A program made the position numbers and the translations under genes. This document shows, piece by piece, positions 1 through 7,776 of a stretch of DNA of 64,000 nt (position 1 is its first letter; every line of letters begins with the position of its first letter). Below the pieces are notes generated by a model. It was not told where the DNA came from, did not search any database, and saw nothing but the letters and a program-made list of their open reading frames with translations. This DNA comes from Indolivaga macrotermitis (lineage in GTDB: Bacteria; Bacteroidota; Bacteroidia; Bacteroidales; Dysgonomonadaceae), in assembly GCF_900128985.1 (NCBI RefSeq), contig NZ_FQUC01000010.1, positions 1-64,000 on the forward strand, read 5' to 3'.

Positions 1-10
1 AGAGAGAGAG
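1..10. repeat. (AG)n microsatellite, copy 1 (cut by window start)
   Basis: The window opens with five AG units and then the same sequence that follows the longer tract at 2937-2988 (ACGCATCACTTGCGTTAAC). The tract very probably continues to the left of the window, so its length cannot be read here. Confidence 0.85.
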
Positions 11-468
11 ACGCATCACTTGCGTTAACTAAACAGAATTTTTCTAAAATACAAATTTTCCTATTGTGTCAAAATAACGGAGCATTTTTTTATGCTTTCG
101 TTTACTTCGTGGTATATATCCAATTCCAAATAAGTTGGTTCGGTAAGCTGTACCGGATAGAATCATTGTTGTTTTGTTGTCGTTCGAAAACTACTCCGGA
201 TAACCATTTACCAATAAGCCAACTGCCTATTGCAGCAGGGTGCAGTGTATGCACTTTGCTGCTTTTCTTTCAAATGATCAATAAATTCGGTGCTGAAAAT
301 CAACAACTCTTTATAAAAACAACAAGAGGGTCTGAGGCCCCAACAACTCAAATTGAAATGACAATGAAAAAGAAATGTTTGCCTTTGCTGGGTATATTCT
401 CGTTCGGGATATTCCATGCACAGGTAGGAATCAACACACAAAACCCACAGGGAATTTTCCACATTGAT
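11..468 (+). repeat. Duplicated leader, copy 1 (5' UTR plus signal-peptide codons)
   Basis: This block repeats at 2989-3630. Bases 62-270 align without gaps to 3022-3230 with nine substitutions, and similarity resumes at 296 and runs about 100 bases into the coding sequence. It contains ACGC/GCGT at 11-25, a CGGTA/TACCG hairpin at 141-155, and a strong stem at 232-262. A frame is open from a TTG at 64 into the gene, but the substitutions fall on all three codon positions (four third, three first, two second; six of nine change the residue), so I read it as an untranslated structured leader. Copy 1 lacks the insertion seen in copy 2. Confidence 0.8.
232..270 (+). terminator. Terminator-like hairpin in leader copy 1 (possible attenuator)
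   Basis: GCAGCA (232-237) pairs with TGCTGC (257-262) and GTGCA (240-244) with TGCAC (250-254), with a 2x2 internal loop and a GTGTA loop, followed by TTTTCTTT. The stem is identical in copy 2 (3192-3222). The layout is that of an intrinsic terminator placed about 100 bases before the start codon. Attenuation is inferred. Confidence 0.5.
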
Positions 469-1149
469 GGGAAGAGTGACAACTCTTCTACCCCAACAGT
501 AACACAACAATTGAATGACTTTGTTATACTTAGTAATGGCAATGTAGGAATCGGGACACTAAATCCCTCTGCTAAATTAGTTATCGAAGATGGAGCCACT
601 GCTGTGAATCCTAAATCTGTACTGAAAATTGTAGACCCCAATGTGAAAAAGGATAGGGTTATGACTGCCATCAACTCTAATGGAGAGGCTACATGGCAGG
701 ATTATGAATATCAGGGAAAAATAGGACAGGTATATTCAACAACATCGCTTCCGGCACAAACATTTCCGGCAGCTATAACCGCAATAAACGGTTGGAGTTT
801 TACAATACCGGAAGAAGGATATTATGCTTTTGATATCCGTTGGTGGGCTACTTATTCGGCTGTGACTTCGGGGGCGGTAGCTGTTACTGCTACTCATTTC
901 TACTTAAATGTAAATGGAACTACCATGGATCAGTATGAAACATATAATACAATTAATACATCTCTTGGGAATCGTTTAACAGCCTATTTTCCCCTATACT
1001 TCGATGCAACTGCTGCTGATGTGGGTAAAACCGTAACAATCAGTGTTCGTCCCGGAATCTCTCCGGCATCGGCAGGACAGTCGACACAAAACAATACTAC
1101 AATCCCTTGGACAACGAGTAAGATAACTGTAAAACGTATGGATATATGA
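364..1149 (+). CDS. Secreted stalk-and-head protein 1 (cassette 1, head family A)
   Basis: 261 residues from ATG 364; an in-frame ATG at 358 is also possible. Residues 1-20 are a signal peptide ending FHAQ. Residues 21-112 form the shared stalk: VGINTQNPQGIFHID, NGNVGIGTLNPSAKL near 59-72, and a segment ending NGEATW. Residues about 118-261 form a beta-rich head with GYYAFDIRWWATY and a final strand SKITVKRMDI. The fold resembles a C1q/TNF-like jelly roll by eye, which is inference. GNVGIGT-type repeats are common in Bacteroidetes secreted and fibre-like proteins. It is the first gene of a three-gene operon and its stop overlaps the next start by four bases. No lipobox and no evident type IX secretion C-terminal domain. 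Function unknown. Confidence 0.8.
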   Translation: MKKKCLPLLGIFSFGIFHAQVGINTQNPQGIFHIDGKSDNSSTPTVTQQLNDFVILSNGNVGIGTLNPSAKLVIEDGATAVNPKSVLKIVDPNVKKDRVMTAINSNGEATWQDYEYQGKIGQVYSTTSLPAQTFPAAITAINGWSFTIPEEGYYAFDIRWWATYSAVTSGAVAVTATHFYLNVNGTTMDQYETYNTINTSLGNRLTAYFPLYFDATAADVGKTVTISVRPGISPASAGQSTQNNTTIPWTTSKITVKRMDI

Positions 1150-1907
1150 GAAATATTCTTGGTATATTAATTTTAACGGCTTTACCGGTAATGGCGCAGA
1201 TAGGTGTCAATACCGAAACACCTTATACCCTGTTTCATCTGGATGCCCGTTATACAGCGACAACAACCAATCCGGATAACGCCGTTCCTTCTAATATTCA
1301 GCAACAAGATGATGTTGTAATCACAGAAGATGGTAAAGTCGGTATTGGAACGATAACCCCGGGTGCGAAATTTGAAGTGAATACCCAAAACGTAGCCGGT
1401 ATGTATCCTTTACAGATTACAGATACCAGTGATCCCACAGGTAAAGTTTTGGTTTCGGATAGTAATGGAAATGCTCTGTGGACAAAAGTCCAGCCTCCCC
1501 GGGGAACCGTATATCCCATTATTGATATACCTGCCTCTACAATACCTGCTGGATCGGAGCAATTGGTGCCGAATAGTGAATTTACGGTACCGCATGATGG
1601 CTTTTTCTCGTACGAAATACGTTGGTGGTCTTATTATAGTGCAGCATATGCAACAGCTTCGCGTATCAGTATAGTGTTGATACTGAAAAGAAACGGGGTT
1701 ACAGTAGACTCATTCAGGTATCAGACTCCTTTTATAGGATCATCGGCTATAACAAGTTATATTCCATTGTATTCTACAGCCAATGCTAATGACAAGCTGG
1801 CTCTATATATACATTCTGTAGAAGGACCGGGCAATGTGATGACTCAAACAACACGTCAATGGACTACTCCTCGAATTTTAGTAAAAGAATTACAAATGAA
1901 TTTTTAA
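1146..1907 (+). CDS. Secreted stalk-and-head protein 2 (cassette 1, head family A)
   Basis: 253 residues, starting in an ATGA overlap with the previous stop, which implies translational coupling. Residues 1-18 are a signal peptide ending VMAQ. The stalk has IGVNTETP, then DVVITEDGKVGIGTITPGAKF and GNALW. The head has VPHDGFFSYEIRWWSYYSA and ends TPRILVKELQMNF, matching the IRWW and terminal-strand signatures of its two operon neighbours. Family-level function is unknown; a surface-exposed structural or binding role is inferred from architecture only. Confidence 0.8.
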   Translation: MRNILGILILTALPVMAQIGVNTETPYTLFHLDARYTATTTNPDNAVPSNIQQQDDVVITEDGKVGIGTITPGAKFEVNTQNVAGMYPLQITDTSDPTGKVLVSDSNGNALWTKVQPPRGTVYPIIDIPASTIPAGSEQLVPNSEFTVPHDGFFSYEIRWWSYYSAAYATASRISIVLILKRNGVTVDSFRYQTPFIGSSAITSYIPLYSTANANDKLALYIHSVEGPGNVMTQTTRQWTTPRILVKELQMNF

Positions 1908-1917
1908 AACAGTGGAT

Positions 1918-2700
1918 ATGATTAAATACATTATAATAGGGTTATTTACAATGATTTGCTATTGTGTGTCGTATGCGCAATGTATAGGTATCAACACCCG
2001 TAATATGCCGACCGGAATGCTAGTCGTTGTAGACGGAAGTGGAGATAATAGCCTTTCTCCATCTGGTGTGGAAATTCAAAACGATGTAGTAATTAATGCC
2101 AGAGGGAATGTCGGAATCGGGATGCACAATCCTTTGGCAAAATTAAGTATCGATAAAGGGAATGCAAGCTATCCTATCCGGATTATAGACGGTTATCAGG
2201 AAGAGGGAAGAATGCTTACCTCCGATGATTCGGGAAATGCAAATTGGCTGTCTGTTGCCCCATCTACAGGCAGTATAGAGGCTATTATATCTTTACCCAC
2301 ACAGAATATAGCGTACAGTAACTATACCATTCCGTTAACAGGATCTGAGTTTGTCGTACCTACCGATGGGTACTATATATACGAAGTCAGATGGTATGGC
2401 AAGTATTCAACTGCACCAAGTAGTCAGGCCATGACTACTTCTCACTTTAGACTGACTCTGGATAATAATATTGTTGATGAATACGAAGCTTATATGGATA
2501 TTACTACGGAAACGAACGACGCTGTTGCATTCTTTACCGCTCTGGCTACCAAGGCTCAAAAAGGACAAAGGTTGGCTTTGATAAATAGATTGGGGTTTGG
2601 ACCCGGTAATGCATCCGGTGGTTATATGCAGATAACTGATTATGGAACAGGCGATCCCAGAACCTCAAAAATCATAGTGAAGCGATTAAATATGCGATAA
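1918..2700 (+). CDS. Secreted stalk-and-head protein 3 (cassette 1, head family A)
   Basis: 260 residues from ATG 1918, chosen over a GTG at 1912 because it opens directly with the signal peptide (MIKYIIIGLF, ending SYAQ). The stalk has CIGINTRN, DVVINARGNVGIGMHNPLAKL and GNANW, with IGM replacing the usual IGT. The head has VPTDGYYIYEVRWYGKYS and ends TSKIIVKRLNMR, close to protein 1. Last gene of cassette 1; an intrinsic terminator follows at 2713-2758. Function unknown. Confidence 0.8.
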   Translation: MIKYIIIGLFTMICYCVSYAQCIGINTRNMPTGMLVVVDGSGDNSLSPSGVEIQNDVVINARGNVGIGMHNPLAKLSIDKGNASYPIRIIDGYQEEGRMLTSDDSGNANWLSVAPSTGSIEAIISLPTQNIAYSNYTIPLTGSEFVVPTDGYYIYEVRWYGKYSTAPSSQAMTTSHFRLTLDNNIVDEYEAYMDITTETNDAVAFFTALATKAQKGQRLALINRLGFGPGNASGGYMQITDYGTGDPRTSKIIVKRLNMR

Positions 2701-2712
2701 ATAAATTGGAGA

Positions 2713-2758
2713 ATAGGGAGGATATGACTTGAAGAATAGTATACCTCCCTGTTTTTTA
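2713..2758 (+). terminator. Intrinsic terminator of cassette 1
   Basis: AGGGAGG (2715-2721) pairs with CCTCCCT (2744-2750), with an additional inner ATA/TAT, followed by G and six T. It separates cassette 1 from the promoter of cassette 2. Confidence 0.75.
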
Positions 2759-2793
2759 CTATTTGGATCACAGATCCGATAAAGTTATCTTTT

Positions 2794-2824
2794 TTTGTTA
2801 AAATCAAAACATTCCTTATATTTG
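2794..2824 (+). promoter_or_regulatory. Promoter of cassette 2, upstream of the (AG)26 tract
   Basis: TTTG (2794-2797), a 19-base spacer, then TATATTTG (2817-2824): an exact match to the Bacteroidetes -33/-7 consensus. Start of transcription would be near 2831, which puts the AG tract and the whole leader inside a 5' UTR of about 700 nt. Confidence 0.7.
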
Positions 2825-2935
2825 CCATACAAACAACCTATTACAATCTCTGAATGACTCAGGTTTTCACACATAAAAATATCAATAATGATCTAAATTT
2901 TAACAGTTTAGATTTGATATTGTGTGCTGAAATAT

Positions 2936-2990
<55 letters not shown>

Positions 2991-3191
2991 GCATCACTTG
3001 CGTTAACTAAACAAAATTTCTTATTGTGTCAAAATAACGGAGCATTTTTTTATGCCTTCGTTTACTTCGTCGTATATATCCATTTCCAAATAAGTTGGCT
3101 CGGTAAGCTGTACCGGGTAGAGTCATTGTTGTTTTGTTGTCGTTCGAAAACTACTCCGGATAACCGTTTACCAATAAGCCAACTGTCTATT

Positions 3192-3230
3192 GCAGCAGGG
3201 TGCAGTGTATGCACTTTGCTGCTTTACTTT
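3192..3230 (+). terminator. Terminator-like hairpin in leader copy 2
   Basis: Same stem as 232-262 with no substitution in either arm, followed by TTTACTTT instead of TTTTCTTT. The weaker U run could change read-through relative to copy 1, which is inference. Confidence 0.5.
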
Positions 3231-3253
3231 CAACCAATTAATAGCCATTTAAA

Positions 3254-3417
3254 CACAAAGGCACTAAGACATAAAGGTTTTATTCAAAGACGTACTGTAG
3301 GGGTAAGGCTCTGCTTTACCCATTGTCCTGAAATACAATATAGAGCCCTTTGCGCCTACTTCGTGCCCTTTGTGATAAAGTACACATTATCGGGCAAAGA
3401 AGAACCCTACCCCTACA
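3254..3417. mobile_element. Small non-coding inverted-repeat element (MITE-like) in leader copy 2
   Basis: It lies within the stretch absent from copy 1. CACAAAGGCAC (3254-3264) is inverted at 3363-3374 (GTGCCCTTTGTG, one extra base), and TGTAGGGGTA (3296-3305) is perfectly inverted at 3408-3417, so two inverted repeats interlock. A local palindrome near 3300-3327 adds structure. No transposase, and target duplications are not clear. Similar cacaaaggcac-type repeats are scattered in Bacteroidetes genomes, as far as I recall. Confidence 0.5.
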
Positions 3418-3460
3418 ATCACCACATTCAAAATCAACAACTCTTTATAAAAATAACAAA

Positions 3461-3502
3461 AAGGTCTACGACCTTAAAAACAACAAAAGGGGGTGCGACC
3501 CC
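3461..3502. repeat. Two tandem short palindromes
   Basis: AAGGTC-TAC-GACCTT at 3461-3475 and GGGGT-GCG-ACCCC at 3490-3502, each with a three-base loop. The same AAGGTC-N3-GACCTT shape recurs perfectly at 62427-62441 and imperfectly at 7808-7822 and 53179-53193. Confidence 0.6.
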
Positions 3503-3524
3503 AACAACTCAAATTGAAATGACA

Positions 3525-4358
3525 ATGAAAAAGAAATGTTTGCTTCTGCTGGGAATATTCTCGTTCGGGATATCCCATGCACAGGTAGGAATCAACACGC
3601 AAAATCCGCAAGGAATTTTCCATATCGACCCTCAGGCGGATACTTCCGGTACTTCGGGGAGTGGAGACGATGTGGTAGTAAAAGACAATGGTTATGTCGG
3701 GATCGGAACGGTTGACCCTGTATCCCGGATACATATCAAAACACAAGGTACTGCCACTTCTCCCGAAACTGGTTTTATCCTTGAAGATGGAAATCAAAGT
3801 GAAGGGAAGATACTCACTGCTATTGATGATACCGGTCTTGCCACGTGGAAAGAACTCGTCGTCTTTGATGCTGTGATGTTTAATAGATCGACCAGTTCTC
3901 CTAATTTGAATCTTGAAACGAATCCTAATTTCTATGCGACAAATTCCACAATAACTTTATCTCCTGGGCGTTGGGTTGTTCTGGTTGTAATGTTTATAAC
4001 AACCAGAACCGCTACCGTTACTGCGTATTATGGGAGTGATCAATTTGGAGTGAGCGCTACTTTTTCGGATCCAACCCTCTTGGCAAATAATGGACAACCA
4101 TTGAATAATATTAGAACTTTGGATTTAGAAGGTTTCGGTGTTGTGTCGGGTCAGTTCTGGACAGGCTACTATTCTGGTATTCTTACAGGTTCTGTTATTA
4201 TCAATAATAAATCTAATGCAGACAAAGTATATTATTTTATGGTGGGAAATATAGAATACAATGGAAATTCAGCTCCTGCCGGACTTTATATAGGAGGTCC
4301 TGGAGGAGGTTGGGGAGAAGATAATATTGTAGCTTATCGCATTCCTCGCGAATTATAA
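3525..4358 (+). CDS. Secreted stalk-and-head protein 4 (cassette 2, head family B)
   Basis: 277 residues from ATG 3525 (ATG 3519 possible). Residues 1-35 are nearly identical to protein 1, including the signal peptide ending SHAQ and VGINTQNPQGIFHID. The stalk continues with DNGYVGIGTVDPVSRI, FILEDGNQ and GLATW. The head differs from cassette 1: it has ATNSTITLSPGRWVVLVVMF, then GYYSGILTGSVIINNKS and KVYYFMVGNIEYN, ending NIVAYRIPREL. First gene of the second three-gene operon. Function unknown; the new head joined to the same N-terminus suggests module exchange. Confidence 0.8.
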   Translation: MKKKCLLLLGIFSFGISHAQVGINTQNPQGIFHIDPQADTSGTSGSGDDVVVKDNGYVGIGTVDPVSRIHIKTQGTATSPETGFILEDGNQSEGKILTAIDDTGLATWKELVVFDAVMFNRSTSSPNLNLETNPNFYATNSTITLSPGRWVVLVVMFITTRTATVTAYYGSDQFGVSATFSDPTLLANNGQPLNNIRTLDLEGFGVVSGQFWTGYYSGILTGSVIINNKSNADKVYYFMVGNIEYNGNSAPAGLYIGGPGGGWGEDNIVAYRIPREL

Positions 4359-4382
4359 ATAACGAAAGAAAATAGTATTGTA

Positions 4383-5183
4383 ATGAAAAATATATTTGTT
4401 TTACTTTTCTTGCTGTTAGGTGGAATCATTTATGGGCAGGTATCTATAAACACCCTTAATCCTTTGTCAGGAGTTTTACATATCGATTCGTCGGGTGATA
4501 ATGGCACTGGTACACCTACGTCGGTTCAAACGTCAGATGATATTTTTATCTCTAATAGCGGTTATGTAGGTGTCGGACATGCTGTTCCGCAGGCTCAGTT
4601 TCATCTCAAAACCTCTGATCAATATAATGGTTCTATTAAGATAGAGGATGGGTCACAGTTTAATGCCCGTGTTTTAAGGTCGGATGCTAATGGAAAGTCT
4701 GTCTGGGCATATGCCGGGGAAGTGCAGACAGTATATGCTCAACTTGGTTCCGGGATAAATGTATTGTTGAGTACAATAAATGTTGCAGTGGATATATTTA
4801 CTGATACTCAGGGATATATTTACCTCAATCCCGGAATGTGGCTTGTTACATGTTCGATGTCGTTGAATTTCCAAACCTCAGAAACAACGAGCTTACTTTA
4901 TCGGTGTTGGATAAGAAGTTCCTTTTCGGATATTGCAGGAGGAAGTTATTCGGCCGATATTGTAGGCCCAAAGTATGCTTCGGGAGTTGCTTATTCTATA
5001 GGATATGGTCAGTTGAATGGTTTTATTGTCATCCACAATCAAACATCTGCTATCAAGCGGTATTACTATGTGTTGGCATATTCATCAAAGGTGAATTCTC
5101 CTACCGACAGTATTCTGATGAATTTTGCAAAAGGAGGGGTAGAAGGCAACACTATTATTGCTTATAAAATGAAAGATAATTAA
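4383..5183 (+). CDS. Secreted stalk-and-head protein 5 (cassette 2, head family B)
   Basis: 266 residues. The signal peptide ends IIYGQ. The stalk has VSINTLNPLSGVLHID, SGYVGVGHAVPQAQF (a degenerate GxVGIGT motif) and GKSVW. The head has GYIYLNPGMWLVTCSMSL, GQLNGFIVIHNQTS and KRYYYVLAYS, ending NTIIAYKMKDN, matching proteins 4 and 6. It lies 24 bases downstream of protein 4 and three bases before protein 6. Function unknown. Confidence 0.8.
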   Translation: MKNIFVLLFLLLGGIIYGQVSINTLNPLSGVLHIDSSGDNGTGTPTSVQTSDDIFISNSGYVGVGHAVPQAQFHLKTSDQYNGSIKIEDGSQFNARVLRSDANGKSVWAYAGEVQTVYAQLGSGINVLLSTINVAVDIFTDTQGYIYLNPGMWLVTCSMSLNFQTSETTSLLYRCWIRSSFSDIAGGSYSADIVGPKYASGVAYSIGYGQLNGFIVIHNQTSAIKRYYYVLAYSSKVNSPTDSILMNFAKGGVEGNTIIAYKMKDN

Positions 5184-5186
5184 GAT

Positions 5187-6038
5187 ATGGAAGATATACT
5201 ATTTTTATTCAGGATAAGAGTAATAGCTATATTTATAGTTATGATGATAACATCACAGTTTACACATGCTCAGATAGGGATTAATACGGATTATGTAGCA
5301 AATAATCTGATATTGCAGATAGATTCGAAGAGGAATAATCCTTCAGACGGCACAACACCTTCTGCTTCCCAGGCATTGGATGATGTCGCAGTTACGAATA
5401 CTGGTAATGTCGGTATCGGGACTCTTACTCCACAAACGAAATTACATATTGTGACAGGCGGTACTACTTTATCACCTAATCCACAGTTCAGGCTCGAAGA
5501 TGGGTTGCAATTGACTAATCGGGTTTTGACATGTAATGCACAAGGTATCGGTTATTGGGAAGATTATGTTCCCGGTGCATCACAGGGTGTGTGGGATACT
5601 TCGGGAGTTAGCATCTCAGGTAGTGAAACTTCCTTTGTGAATACAAAAGCTAAAATCAGCCTTGATTCGGGTAGCTGGGCGATCTTTTATGCCTTGATAG
5701 TGGAAATTGATACACCTGGTATGGCTTCGAATGGAAACCGGATATTGGTTAAAACATCATTGGCTGATGATACTACTTTATACAACTCAGGTATAAACGG
5801 GTTTCCTACTACTGATATCTCAGGTGGAGGTACTTATTACGAGTATATTGTATGGCAGTATGGGAAAAGTGTTTTAGTCGGGAGGTATGTTATCAATAAT
5901 ACAACTACCGGATCGAAAGATTATTATCTCATTGCCGGATCGGTATCTAATCCGGGAGCGGTTACCGGTATTACTTTGGTTAATGTTGGAAAAGAGGTTG
6001 AAGGATCGAGCTTTTTCGCTTTCCGGGCTAAAGAGTAA
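5187..6038 (+). CDS. Secreted stalk-and-head protein 6 (cassette 2, head family B)
   Basis: 283 residues. The hydrophobic N-terminus ends THAQ, a slightly long signal peptide for the family. The stalk has IGINTDYV, DVAVTNTGNVGIGTLTPQTKL and FRLEDGLQ. The head has KISLDSGSWAIFYALIVEI, GKSVLVGRYVINNTTTGSKDYYLIAGSV and ends SFFAFRAKE. Last gene of cassette 2, followed by a bidirectional terminator at 6052-6085. Function unknown. Confidence 0.8.
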   Translation: MEDILFLFRIRVIAIFIVMMITSQFTHAQIGINTDYVANNLILQIDSKRNNPSDGTTPSASQALDDVAVTNTGNVGIGTLTPQTKLHIVTGGTTLSPNPQFRLEDGLQLTNRVLTCNAQGIGYWEDYVPGASQGVWDTSGVSISGSETSFVNTKAKISLDSGSWAIFYALIVEIDTPGMASNGNRILVKTSLADDTTLYNSGINGFPTTDISGGGTYYEYIVWQYGKSVLVGRYVINNTTTGSKDYYLIAGSVSNPGAVTGITLVNVGKEVEGSSFFAFRAKE

Positions 6039-6051
6039 AGATGATAGACAT

Positions 6052-6085
6052 AAATAAAGCCGGCAAAATGAAGCCGGCTTTATTT
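6052..6085. terminator. Bidirectional intrinsic terminator
   Basis: AAATAAAGCCGGC (6052-6064) and GCCGGCTTTATTT (6073-6085) form a perfect 13-bp stem, serving cassette 2 on the plus strand and the converging lipoprotein gene on the minus strand. Confidence 0.85.
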
Positions 6086-6102
6086 GTATTTTTGAGTTAG
6101 TC

Positions 6103-6690
6103 TTATTTACCTCCGAATGTAAAGCTTACCGGAATAGCTACCGGCGATGTAATGCTTTGTCCTGCGATTACAAATGTAGGTTTCAGTTGTACTTTCACAT
6201 TTGACTGCTGAGAACCTATTCCAATGAAATTCTTAGCAATATTCTGAACTGCATTTTTCGAATCACCAGTCATTAATGTGGCCAGATCAACACCAATATT
6301 CAAAGGCAATGTCTGTGTACTGCCTCCGGCAATATTCAATGCCTGGTTCACTTGTCCTGTGGTGAACTGAATGTCATCAATACTGATAACATATTGCAAT
6401 CCGTTAAGAGCTGCAGTTGCTGTATTCGGATTTTTAATATCCAGATTAAGAGTAAAGTTCATAGGAATAGAAGATGCGGTACCTCCTAGAATCGAAATAA
6501 GTTTAGGCAAATTGGTTGCCGAAATGCCATTCGACAGATTCATTCCCGAAACCGTCAGGTTCGAAATGTTTTTGTACTCATACTCGCATTGAGTAAGGTT
6601 ATATGCACTCGAAAGGCTGTTTCCTGTTGTTCCACACCCCGAAAATAGTATTGATACGAACAATACTAAACTTAAAATCTTTTTATTCAT
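6103..6690 (-). CDS. LEA14-like (LEA type 2) lipoprotein
   Basis: 195 residues. The N-terminus is a lipoprotein signal with lipobox FSGC (Cys19). The rest is a beta-rich domain with MNFTLNLDIKNPNTATAALN near residue 80 and PVAIPVSFTFGGK at the end, the pattern of LEA type 2/WHy domains. In bacteria these are single-copy periplasmic lipoproteins of unclear role. It is transcribed divergently from nothing nearby on its 5' side except the minus-strand Smr gene ending at 6730. Family assignment is by motif only. Confidence 0.65.
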   Translation of the reverse strand: MNKKILSLVLFVSILFSGCGTTGNSLSSAYNLTQCEYEYKNISNLTVSGMNLSNGISATNLPKLISILGGTASSIPMNFTLNLDIKNPNTATAALNGLQYVISIDDIQFTTGQVNQALNIAGGSTQTLPLNIGVDLATLMTGDSKNAVQNIAKNFIGIGSQQSNVKVQLKPTFVIAGQSITSPVAIPVSFTFGGK

Positions 6691-6729
6691 TTTATGTTGT
6701 TGTTAAAAGTCTCGCATGTTGGTTTAAAA

Positions 6730-7776
6730 TTATTTTATGGTAACCATAGTTGCTCCGAAACCATATTCGCGGAACGATGCGTCTTGTATGTAGGTGTGTT
6801 TGTATTTATTCTTAAGTTCGTCGAGAATCGCTTTTTTGAGTACACCTTCTCCTTTTCCGTGTATGAAAACGATTTTTTGTCCTTTGTTCGATTTGTTCTC
6901 GTCCATTATTTCCCTGAATTTACTCAACTGATAATCGAGTATATCCGATGCTTCCAAGCCGGCTGTGGAGTCAACAAGTTCATCGATATGCAGGTCTATT
7001 TCGAGAATAGGAGAGGTTTCTTTCTTTTTTGCGGGTTGTATTCTGGGACGTTCCGATTGTTGCTTTTCCCTCATTGCCACAGCTAGTACTTCCGGCTCTA
7101 TGGTAAGTTCTTTTTCAACCAGATCTTTCTTCATCAGGTAGTAGATGATCGCATTTTCGTCGAAATAATCATTATCCCTGAAACTGTGCAGCTTATAAAA
7201 CTTAACGGTATCCAACCGGATTTCGGCTGAACACGGATTCTTTAAACTGAAAGGTTTATCTTTTTTGAAAGCTATAAATTGTACACAGATCTTTTCCAGA
7301 TCATTGAGATCGGTTTTATTAAACTCTTCCAGAAATATTTTTGTATTAGGCTCTATTAACCCTGCGGCGCGGCTGACCCATCCATGGTCATTCCTGCTCA
7401 TATAGTTGTATGAAAGGAAGTAGTTACTGTCGTTCACCAGATAGCATTCGTACGCAGTGGTCGAAAGGCTCTTTTCGTCTAATGGCAGGTAGGCAAGACA
7501 AGCTGTAATAAGGTCTCCCTCTTTGGTTTCGATAACAGGAGTGTCTTCTTCGGGTTTTTCCTGATAAGTTTTCTGTGTTGGTTCCGTTACATTCTGTGGT
7601 TTAACAGACTGCCTGACCTGAGTATCGTGGGCAGGTTCTATAACTATACATTCGCGGATTAGTACCGGGGTGTCAAATCCGTCATCATCAACAATTACAA
7701 CATCTTTACCTTGAAACCCTTTTACTATACCACCTCCTGTTGTATTCAGAAAGCGAACTTTATCACCTATCTTCAT
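6730..7776 (-). CDS. DUF2027/Smr domain protein
   Basis: 348 residues. Residues 1-50 (MKIGDKVRFLNTTGGGIVKG) form an SH3/KOW-like start typical of DUF2027. A middle domain follows a charged linker. The C-terminal 90 residues are an Smr domain with DLHIDEL and the FIHGKGEG loop. Smr domains occur in MutS2 and act on nucleic acids, often as endonucleases or in ribosome rescue; what this architecture does in Bacteroidales is not known to me. A short palindrome (7808-7822) lies just upstream of its start. Confidence 0.8.
   Translation of the reverse strand: MKIGDKVRFLNTTGGGIVKGFQGKDVVIVDDDGFDTPVLIRECIVIEPAHDTQVRQSVKPQNVTEPTQKTYQEKPEEDTPVIETKEGDLITACLAYLPLDEKSLSTTAYECYLVNDSNYFLSYNYMSRNDHGWVSRAAGLIEPNTKIFLEEFNKTDLNDLEKICVQFIAFKKDKPFSLKNPCSAEIRLDTVKFYKLHSFRDNDYFDENAIIYYLMKKDLVEKELTIEPEVLAVAMREKQQSERPRIQPAKKKETSPILEIDLHIDELVDSTAGLEASDILDYQLSKFREIMDENKSNKGQKIVFIHGKGEGVLKKAILDELKNKYKHTYIQDASFREYGFGATMVTIK

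Follow-up and report, generated by a model that had tools for sequence, protein, structure and literature searches.

A putative phase-variable transcription attenuator with an AG repeat in its leader reading frame, ahead of secreted stalk-and-head protein operons in Dysgonomonas

Few members of the vlhA family of Mycoplasma gallisepticum are expressed at a time, and a trinucleotide (GAA) repeat lies in the promoter region of these genes. The subject of this study, an AG-repeat leader preceding two operons for secreted proteins in Indolivaga macrotermitis (Dysgonomonadaceae), differs in that its repeat would act through reading frame and a terminator. It lies in the first 64 kb (hereafter the window) of contig C24 (NZ_FQUC01000010.1), in a genome of 4.66 Mb. 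What it shares with vlhA (GAA-repeat family, PMC6258824) is a large set of probable surface proteins, every one of them preceded by a short variable repeat. An experimentally supported phase-variable attenuator is that of the Streptococcus gallolyticus pil1 locus, where, in the excerpts of Danne et al. 2014 (PMC3894217), the long leader peptide goes with high expression. There, as here, the repeat lies within a leader open reading frame (ORF) and its number sets the frame, a short peptide stopping before the terminator and a long one reaching it. By the same excerpts, pil1 (and pil3) uses the pentanucleotide GCAGA at two loci, whereas the present repeat is an AG dinucleotide, in another phylum and at 16–43 loci per genome; two of the three phases are long in pil1 and one is long here; and the short peptide of pil1 stops 39–49 bp from the terminator, compared with about 215 nt here. 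Unlike pil1, the present leaders also have an extra conserved hairpin, and their cargo consists mostly of trios of secreted stalk-and-head proteins. This comparison rests on architecture, not on sequence alignment, and at the sequence level the architecture here has the features of a pil1-type device. Going by the listings of the open-licence PubMed Central (PMC) literature, we recognised no case of repeat-driven attenuation besides S. gallolyticus, and found no paper there on phase variation in Dysgonomonas. For the products, the nearest parallel is the Bdellovibrio mosaic adhesive trimer (MAT) fibre Bd2133, in which, by the excerpted description (PMC10769870), a constant fibre carries differing tips; the proteins are about 250 amino acids long here and about 1000 in Bd2133, and, unlike Bd2133, the present system usually has three subunits per operon and would be under phase-variable control.

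In our assessment, a phase-variable transcription attenuator that depends on translation very probably governs each cassette. Transcription would start just upstream of a small leader ORF, which ribosomes would enter, reading (AG)n as (Glu-Arg)n, and the number of AG units modulo 3 would set the frame in which they leave the tract. Two of the three phases would bring the ribosome to a stop after only a few codons, some 215 nt ahead of the strong intrinsic terminator, which would then fold and keep the operon OFF; the remaining phase would carry the leader ORF across the terminator and block its hairpin, so that the operon, usually encoding three secreted fibre-type subunits, would be ON. Slippage in the tract would shift a cell between these states. 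The attenuator reading is drawn from the leader ORF, the position of the tract within it, the stops in two frames, the single crossing frame, the covarying terminator, the strong depletion of the crossing phase and the varying tracts at orthologous loci; we further infer that the long frame is the ON state and that switching occurs in culture. The initial annotation, which had proposed a variable system, was right in outline, and the mechanism now appears more specific and more testable than it supposed.

Leader frames, tract phase and terminator

A total of 124 AG-tract leader ORFs were counted across five Dysgonomonas genomes (43 in G000, 25 in G002, 23 in G001, 17 in G005 and 16 in G003). 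The ORF has about 28 codons upstream of the tract, with the consensus MTxIFTHKNINNxLNFNSLDLxLCAEILER, and continues through the AG tract as (Glu-Arg)n. An ATG lies 81–90 nt ahead of the tract in 117 of the 121 leaders having enough upstream sequence and is lacking from this interval in 4, while TAnnTTTG, which we take to be the consensus of the Bacteroidota -7 box, is found 75–180 nt upstream of the tract in 110/121, mostly 37–38 nt before the usual ATG position, compared with 11/121 on the opposite strand of the same stretch. The leader of these loci has an ORF, in most cases behind a predicted promoter box, that contains a repeat whose unit is not a multiple of 3. In the second window cassette, a match to the box, TATATTTG, lies at 2817–2824 (+), 37 nt before the leader-ORF ATG, and the leader ORF itself, in its present short phase (read as OFF), spans 2854–3006 (+) and encodes 50 amino acids, MTQVFTHKNINNDLNFNSLDLILCAEIL(ER)n...THHLR*, matched by a profile (A1) built from 37 copies. 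Within it, at 2937–2989 (+), lies the perfect (AG)26.5 tract, the putative frame switch and the top-scoring of the 5 window rows returned by Tandem Repeats Finder. The initial annotation had placed an AG tract at the head of each cassette; the tract is there, but inside the leader ORF, which arrives at the terminator or stops short of it according to tract length modulo 3.

In 105/106 leaders each of the two short frames meets a stop no more than 39 nt past the tract, with TAACTA close to these stops in 58/106, and the third frame remains open, in nearly all leaders for about 80 codons or more. Leader DNA diverges strongly between species groups and the frame pattern is unchanged. Among 100 leaders with a detected terminator, 96 have exactly one frame free of stops to the terminator end and 4 have none; dinucleotide shuffles would be expected to give exactly one such frame in 3.4 of the 100. 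Because leaders share ancestry, a substitution-placement test was added: in a fuller set 104/107 leaders (98%) are open, compared with 11% when the observed substitutions are placed at random (250 ordered pairs of leaders of the same length, divergence 0.22 on average; L088 left out). The openness of the crossing frame therefore appears to be selected.

The combination of a terminator with exactly one frame crossing it was found at 106 of the 124 loci, the stop of the crossing frame lying beyond the terminator end in 103 of these 106. Present tract lengths put 3 of the 106 in the crossing phase and 103 in the short phases (56 and 47 for the two), a depletion with P = 5.5e-15 against an expectation of 1/3, and at the 103 short-phase loci the stop comes 184–570 nt (median 216) before the terminator. 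The three crossing-phase leaders are L117, which precedes a SusC/D-like pair, L122 (8 units) and L184 (13 units). The last two tracts (L122 at 3749 and L184 at 1146, both on the - strand) are the shortest of the 106 and are perhaps stabilised ON states; a still shorter, uncounted tract of 6 units, at 8665 of L122, is in a short frame. An earlier, overlapping count had put 4/100 leaders in the crossing phase (L088, L117, L122 and L124); the longest frame of L088 in fact does not reach its terminator, and L124, which adjoins a run of N, was dropped from later counts. Neither the 17 counted leaders of G005, a single-contig genome, nor its L101, whose tract is interrupted, are in the crossing phase. 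Also left out of the 124 were L101 (interrupted tract), the 6-unit tract of L122, L192 and L193 (too near an end) and L207 (a repeat of L137); the four of these that are uncounted and readable, namely L101, L122 at 8665, L192 and L193, are all in short frames.

Outside the 106, contig C2 of the window's own genome ends in a leader, L052, that reads in the crossing frame up to the contig edge. It is the only crossing-phase leader seen in that genome and may feed either the first window cassette or the first cassette of contig C14; several contigs of this genome end in AG tracts. Tract length varies between species: orthologous loci carry 24, 20 and 22 units in one case and 34, 39 and 26 in another, the latter being a locus before a SusC/SusD-like pair, in the long frame in one of the three species.

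An intrinsic terminator lies between the leader ORF and the first gene, the detection script returning none at 16 of the 124 loci. In leader 2 it occupies 3192–3222 (+) and consists of a 13 bp stem and a 5-nt loop followed by TTTACTTT; its fold (-21.6 kcal/mol, z -5.0) was equalled by 0 of 200 shuffles. The terminator of leader 1, supported by folding and by the terminator scan, is at 232–262 (+), and in an independent scan the two window terminators rank first among 8 terminator-like sites (4.9 expected). Just upstream is the additional hairpin, hairpin 1, at 3092–3184 (+) in leader 2 (-29.2 kcal/mol, z -3.1, equalled by 1 of 200 shuffles) and at 133–224 (+) in leader 1, where it was assigned from the covariation alignment and a model match. 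Of the 19 base pairs in the terminator and the outer stem of hairpin 1, 15 have changes on both sides with pairing kept, in an alignment of 43 leaders hand-picked from 99 extracted from 5 genomes. The attenuator model built on these elements, R1, matches 3069–3231 in leader 2 and 109–271 in leader 1, both sequences having been in its alignment. A strongly conserved motif, TTGTTGTCGTTC, found in most leaders and at 174–185 and 3134–3145 in the window, sits in the apical region of hairpin 1, and motifs of its type lie 57–59 nt before the T-run hairpin in 78/100 leaders and 63 nt before it in 1. Eleven copies of the hairpin plus terminator have no AG tract in the 330 nt upstream (L180, L181, L182, L183, L185, L186, L187, L198, L200, L202 and L203); some of them closely follow a cassette-like gene, and they are possibly switchless or locked attenuators.

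Alternative explanations and contrary observations

The relation of the crossing frame to gene 1 bears on most of the alternatives. It was read at 85 loci that have a terminator and, by heuristic, a signal peptide in the first gene: at 39 of them the crossing frame ends ahead of gene 1, at 24 it is in frame with gene 1 and fused to it, and at 22 it overlaps the gene out of frame. This free relation indicates that what has been kept is the crossing of the terminator rather than a fused protein or a special peptide, and fits a selected trait that would be the passage of the ribosome across the terminator. In-frame fusion as a general function is ruled out by the 61/85 loci that are not in-frame fusions. 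The same count leaves little probability, the lowest that we assign to any alternative, to the idea that the long frame serves to give the first fibre protein an N-terminal (ER)n extension: both window cassettes and 24/85 leaders do run in frame into gene 1, but the 61 others do not, a long extension would presumably bury the signal peptide, and amino-acid constraint in the long frame is weak. Translational coupling, in which the long leader ORF would end near the start of gene 1 and ribosomes would re-initiate there, the terminator mattering less, is a more serious contender yet still unlikely. It is favoured by the 39 loci whose crossing frame does not extend as far as gene 1, the distance being 3–42 nt at 31 of them, but the remaining 46/85 fuse to gene 1 or overlap it out of frame and cross the terminator all the same, and the terminator covaries across species.

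A reversed polarity, with the short frames as the expressed state and the long frame shutting the operon by bringing ribosomes over the start of gene 1, would agree with the predominance of short frames, since nearly all loci are short in the sequenced genomes and mostly-on genes would look alike. It is nevertheless improbable: in the short state an untranslated, covarying terminator stands in front of the genes, the long frame ends short of gene 1 in 39/85 loci, and the S. gallolyticus case, in the excerpts seen of PMC3894217, has the opposite polarity. That the repeated leader serves chiefly as a substrate for recombination, through which cassettes would swap heads, and that the AG tract is a by-product seems more improbable still. 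By eye, the leaders of one genome resemble each other and those of most different genomes do not, whereas head families recur from genome to genome, a pattern that would suggest homogenisation; recombination, however, leaves the single open frame, the phase depletion and the terminator unexplained.

Several observations weigh against the attenuator itself. The assignment of ON and OFF is read from frames alone. Eighteen of the 124 loci fall outside the 106, namely the 16 without a detected terminator (several clipped by contig ends), L088 and L089, in the last of which two frames pass the terminator start. In 3/107 leaders the best frame stops before or inside the terminator, not counting L088, whose longest frame ends far short of it, and L108, a SusC/D copy with no script-detected terminator, is in its longest frame. 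The apical motif was not found in 21/100 leaders. In L189 and L195 a stop interrupts the leader ORF where the tract begins, and both were left out of the counts. Loci are kin by descent, and the counted pair L143/L197 may be a single locus. Codon-level constraint is weak as well: the ratio of non-synonymous to synonymous polymorphism (pN/pS) is 0.74 for the leader ORF vs 0.90 and 0.67 in its two shifted frames, so that part of the conservation of the leader would be at the nucleotide level. The long frame has a pN/pS of 0.65. A role of the leader as a protein-coding domain was rejected, the codon tests being weak.

The window cassettes and their products

The two tandem operons of three paralogues described by the initial annotation are present, at 358–2700 and 3519–6038. 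Cassette 1, all on the + strand, comprises gene 1 at 358–1149, encoding a signal peptide, a stalk and a predicted TNF/C1q-like jelly-roll head, and genes 2 and 3, of the same head family, at 1146–1907 and 1918–2700. Cassette 2, on the same strand, comprises gene 1 at 3519–4358, with a signal peptide, a stalk and a head of a second family, and genes 2 and 3, of that second family, at 4383–5183 and 5187–6038. Clustering of the last 135 residues bears out the claimed difference in heads, the three proteins of cassette 1 falling in cluster 1 and the three of cassette 2 in cluster 0, and the combination of a common expression and export module with differing heads and a repeat tract is likewise supported. 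The two leaders are alike (89% identity over positions 43–297 of the leader 2 query against leader 1), but the near-identity claimed up to the signal-peptide codons holds only at their two ends, cassette 2 having about 200 extra nt ahead of those codons. This extra stretch, at 3241–3430 between terminator and gene 1, has counterparts in other leaders, which are open in the long frame. The further leader copies that had been predicted exist: a 304-nt leader query gave 42 matches in the genome, some of them partial, a recurrence too high for chance.

In both window leaders one frame stays open through into gene 1. For cassette 2 it is the sole frame open past the tract, spans 2985–4358 (+), crosses the terminator and is not the present phase, which is short; the corresponding frame of cassette 1 spans 1–1149 (+). 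The AG tract of cassette 1 is cut off at position 1, where both window and contig begin, which leaves its 3' end at 1–11 (+); the promoter and leader ORF of this cassette lie beyond the contig. After cassette 2, a hairpin with a T-run at 6050–6087 is the likely end of the operon and adjoins a convergent gene at 6103–6690. The genes downstream on the other strand (6103–7776), one with an LEA_2 domain and the other of DUF2027-Smr type, are ordinary. An Rfam search of positions 1–7000, with E values up to 1, returned a sole match, to CrcZ (E 0.16), far under its cut-off.

The cargo survey covered 108 tracts for which genes were listed; one lies in G015, and two, at L105 (plus strand) and at 1873 of L122, are not leaders. 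Trios with the same head account for 48, trios of a 193/500/195-amino-acid type for 22 and A/B/A trios for 4, the remainder being 8 with two alike, 16 with a long gene first and 10 others. The same-head trios, whose proteins mostly have 230–320 amino acids, fall into seven head clusters, five of which occur in more than one genome, and a simple heuristic finds a signal peptide in 250/288 proteins. Stalk profiles match Bd2133 (PDB 8ond) with E values of 3e-15 and 1.3e-13; these profile matches indicate homology with the MAT stalk, and the stalks here may be trimeric. For the heads, the model of a cassette 1 protein is of moderate confidence (predicted local distance difference test, pLDDT, 72) and gives 52 Foldseek matches at E 0.001 or better, with TM scores normalised to the target of up to 0.68. 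First among them is 9f4b, from a phage baseplate (E 2e-5), followed by TNF/C1q-like lectins, virus capsids and C1q domains. Its matches to the lectins BC2L-C (2wq4, E 8e-5) and PLTL (9ib7, E 3e-4) have a Foldseek probability of 1.0 at 7–8% identity, and many birnavirus capsid jelly rolls score similarly; given the phage baseplate and capsid matches, a lectin reading of this head is not specific. The cassette 2 model (pLDDT 77) has 8 weaker matches, led by Chlamydia Pgp3 (4jdo, E 1.7e-4) and then 4-1BBL (6cpr). For the six cassette proteins Pfam and NCBIfam gave no match over a curated cut-off, and Pfam found no S74 domain in them, no search aimed at S74 having been made; 3 of the 6 have weak tail-fibre matches in PHROGs (E about 1e-4). 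With three paralogues in each operon and trimers among their relatives, the products may form a heterotrimer, and we infer that they are surface adhesive fibres.

The cargo extends beyond fibres. A SusC/SusD pair at L092 (from 5766 on, identified by Pfam at this locus), with relatives at L108 and L123, has the same leader ORF and another terminator, so that the same logic, here counted for the attenuator, appears with a different terminator; at these three loci the long frame, by eye, stops in the terminator loop. AG leader ORFs before SusC/SusD-like pairs were also noted at L117 and L145, and one leader-like ORF, likewise in front of such a pair, was seen in G015, of another genus. At L107 (from 3001 on) the gene behind the AG leader ORF encodes a hybrid two-component regulator of 1356 amino acids (Pfam Reg_prop, HATPase, response regulator and AraC helix–turn–helix domains), and the frames of this leader are not cleanly one-open.

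Distribution and significance

Profile A1 was found in 5 of the 6 genomes of the genus, the window's own included, and not in the sixth (G004, 62% complete). Across the family it was found in 6/101 genomes, the five of the genus and G015 with a single match, and across the order in 2 of 393 evenly drawn genomes, both of the genus. The attenuator model R1, for which 28 candidates per genome were scored under stricter filters, was found in 5/101 family genomes, all of the genus. Taken together, these distributions make the attenuator look like a genus-level invention that then expanded.

Repeat-driven attenuation is known; here it would occur in another phylum, be based on a dinucleotide and reach an unusual scale. 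The natural replication of the device at 124 loci allows the frame rule to be tested statistically, and this rule predicts the ON or OFF state of each operon from sequence alone. More tentatively, and with somewhat less than even confidence, we propose that the genus holds an antigenic-variation-like repertoire of about 16–45 operons per genome, most of them for a three-subunit, possibly heterotrimeric, lectin-tipped fibre, all under copies of one frame-reading attenuator of an origin independent of the streptococcal one, which would also control a SusC/D operon; almost all would be OFF, and a cell would express at most a few fibres. If this is true, these bacteria would carry a large and mostly silent stock of switchable surface proteins, which may be relevant to their contacts with phages, with the immune system and with other bacteria.

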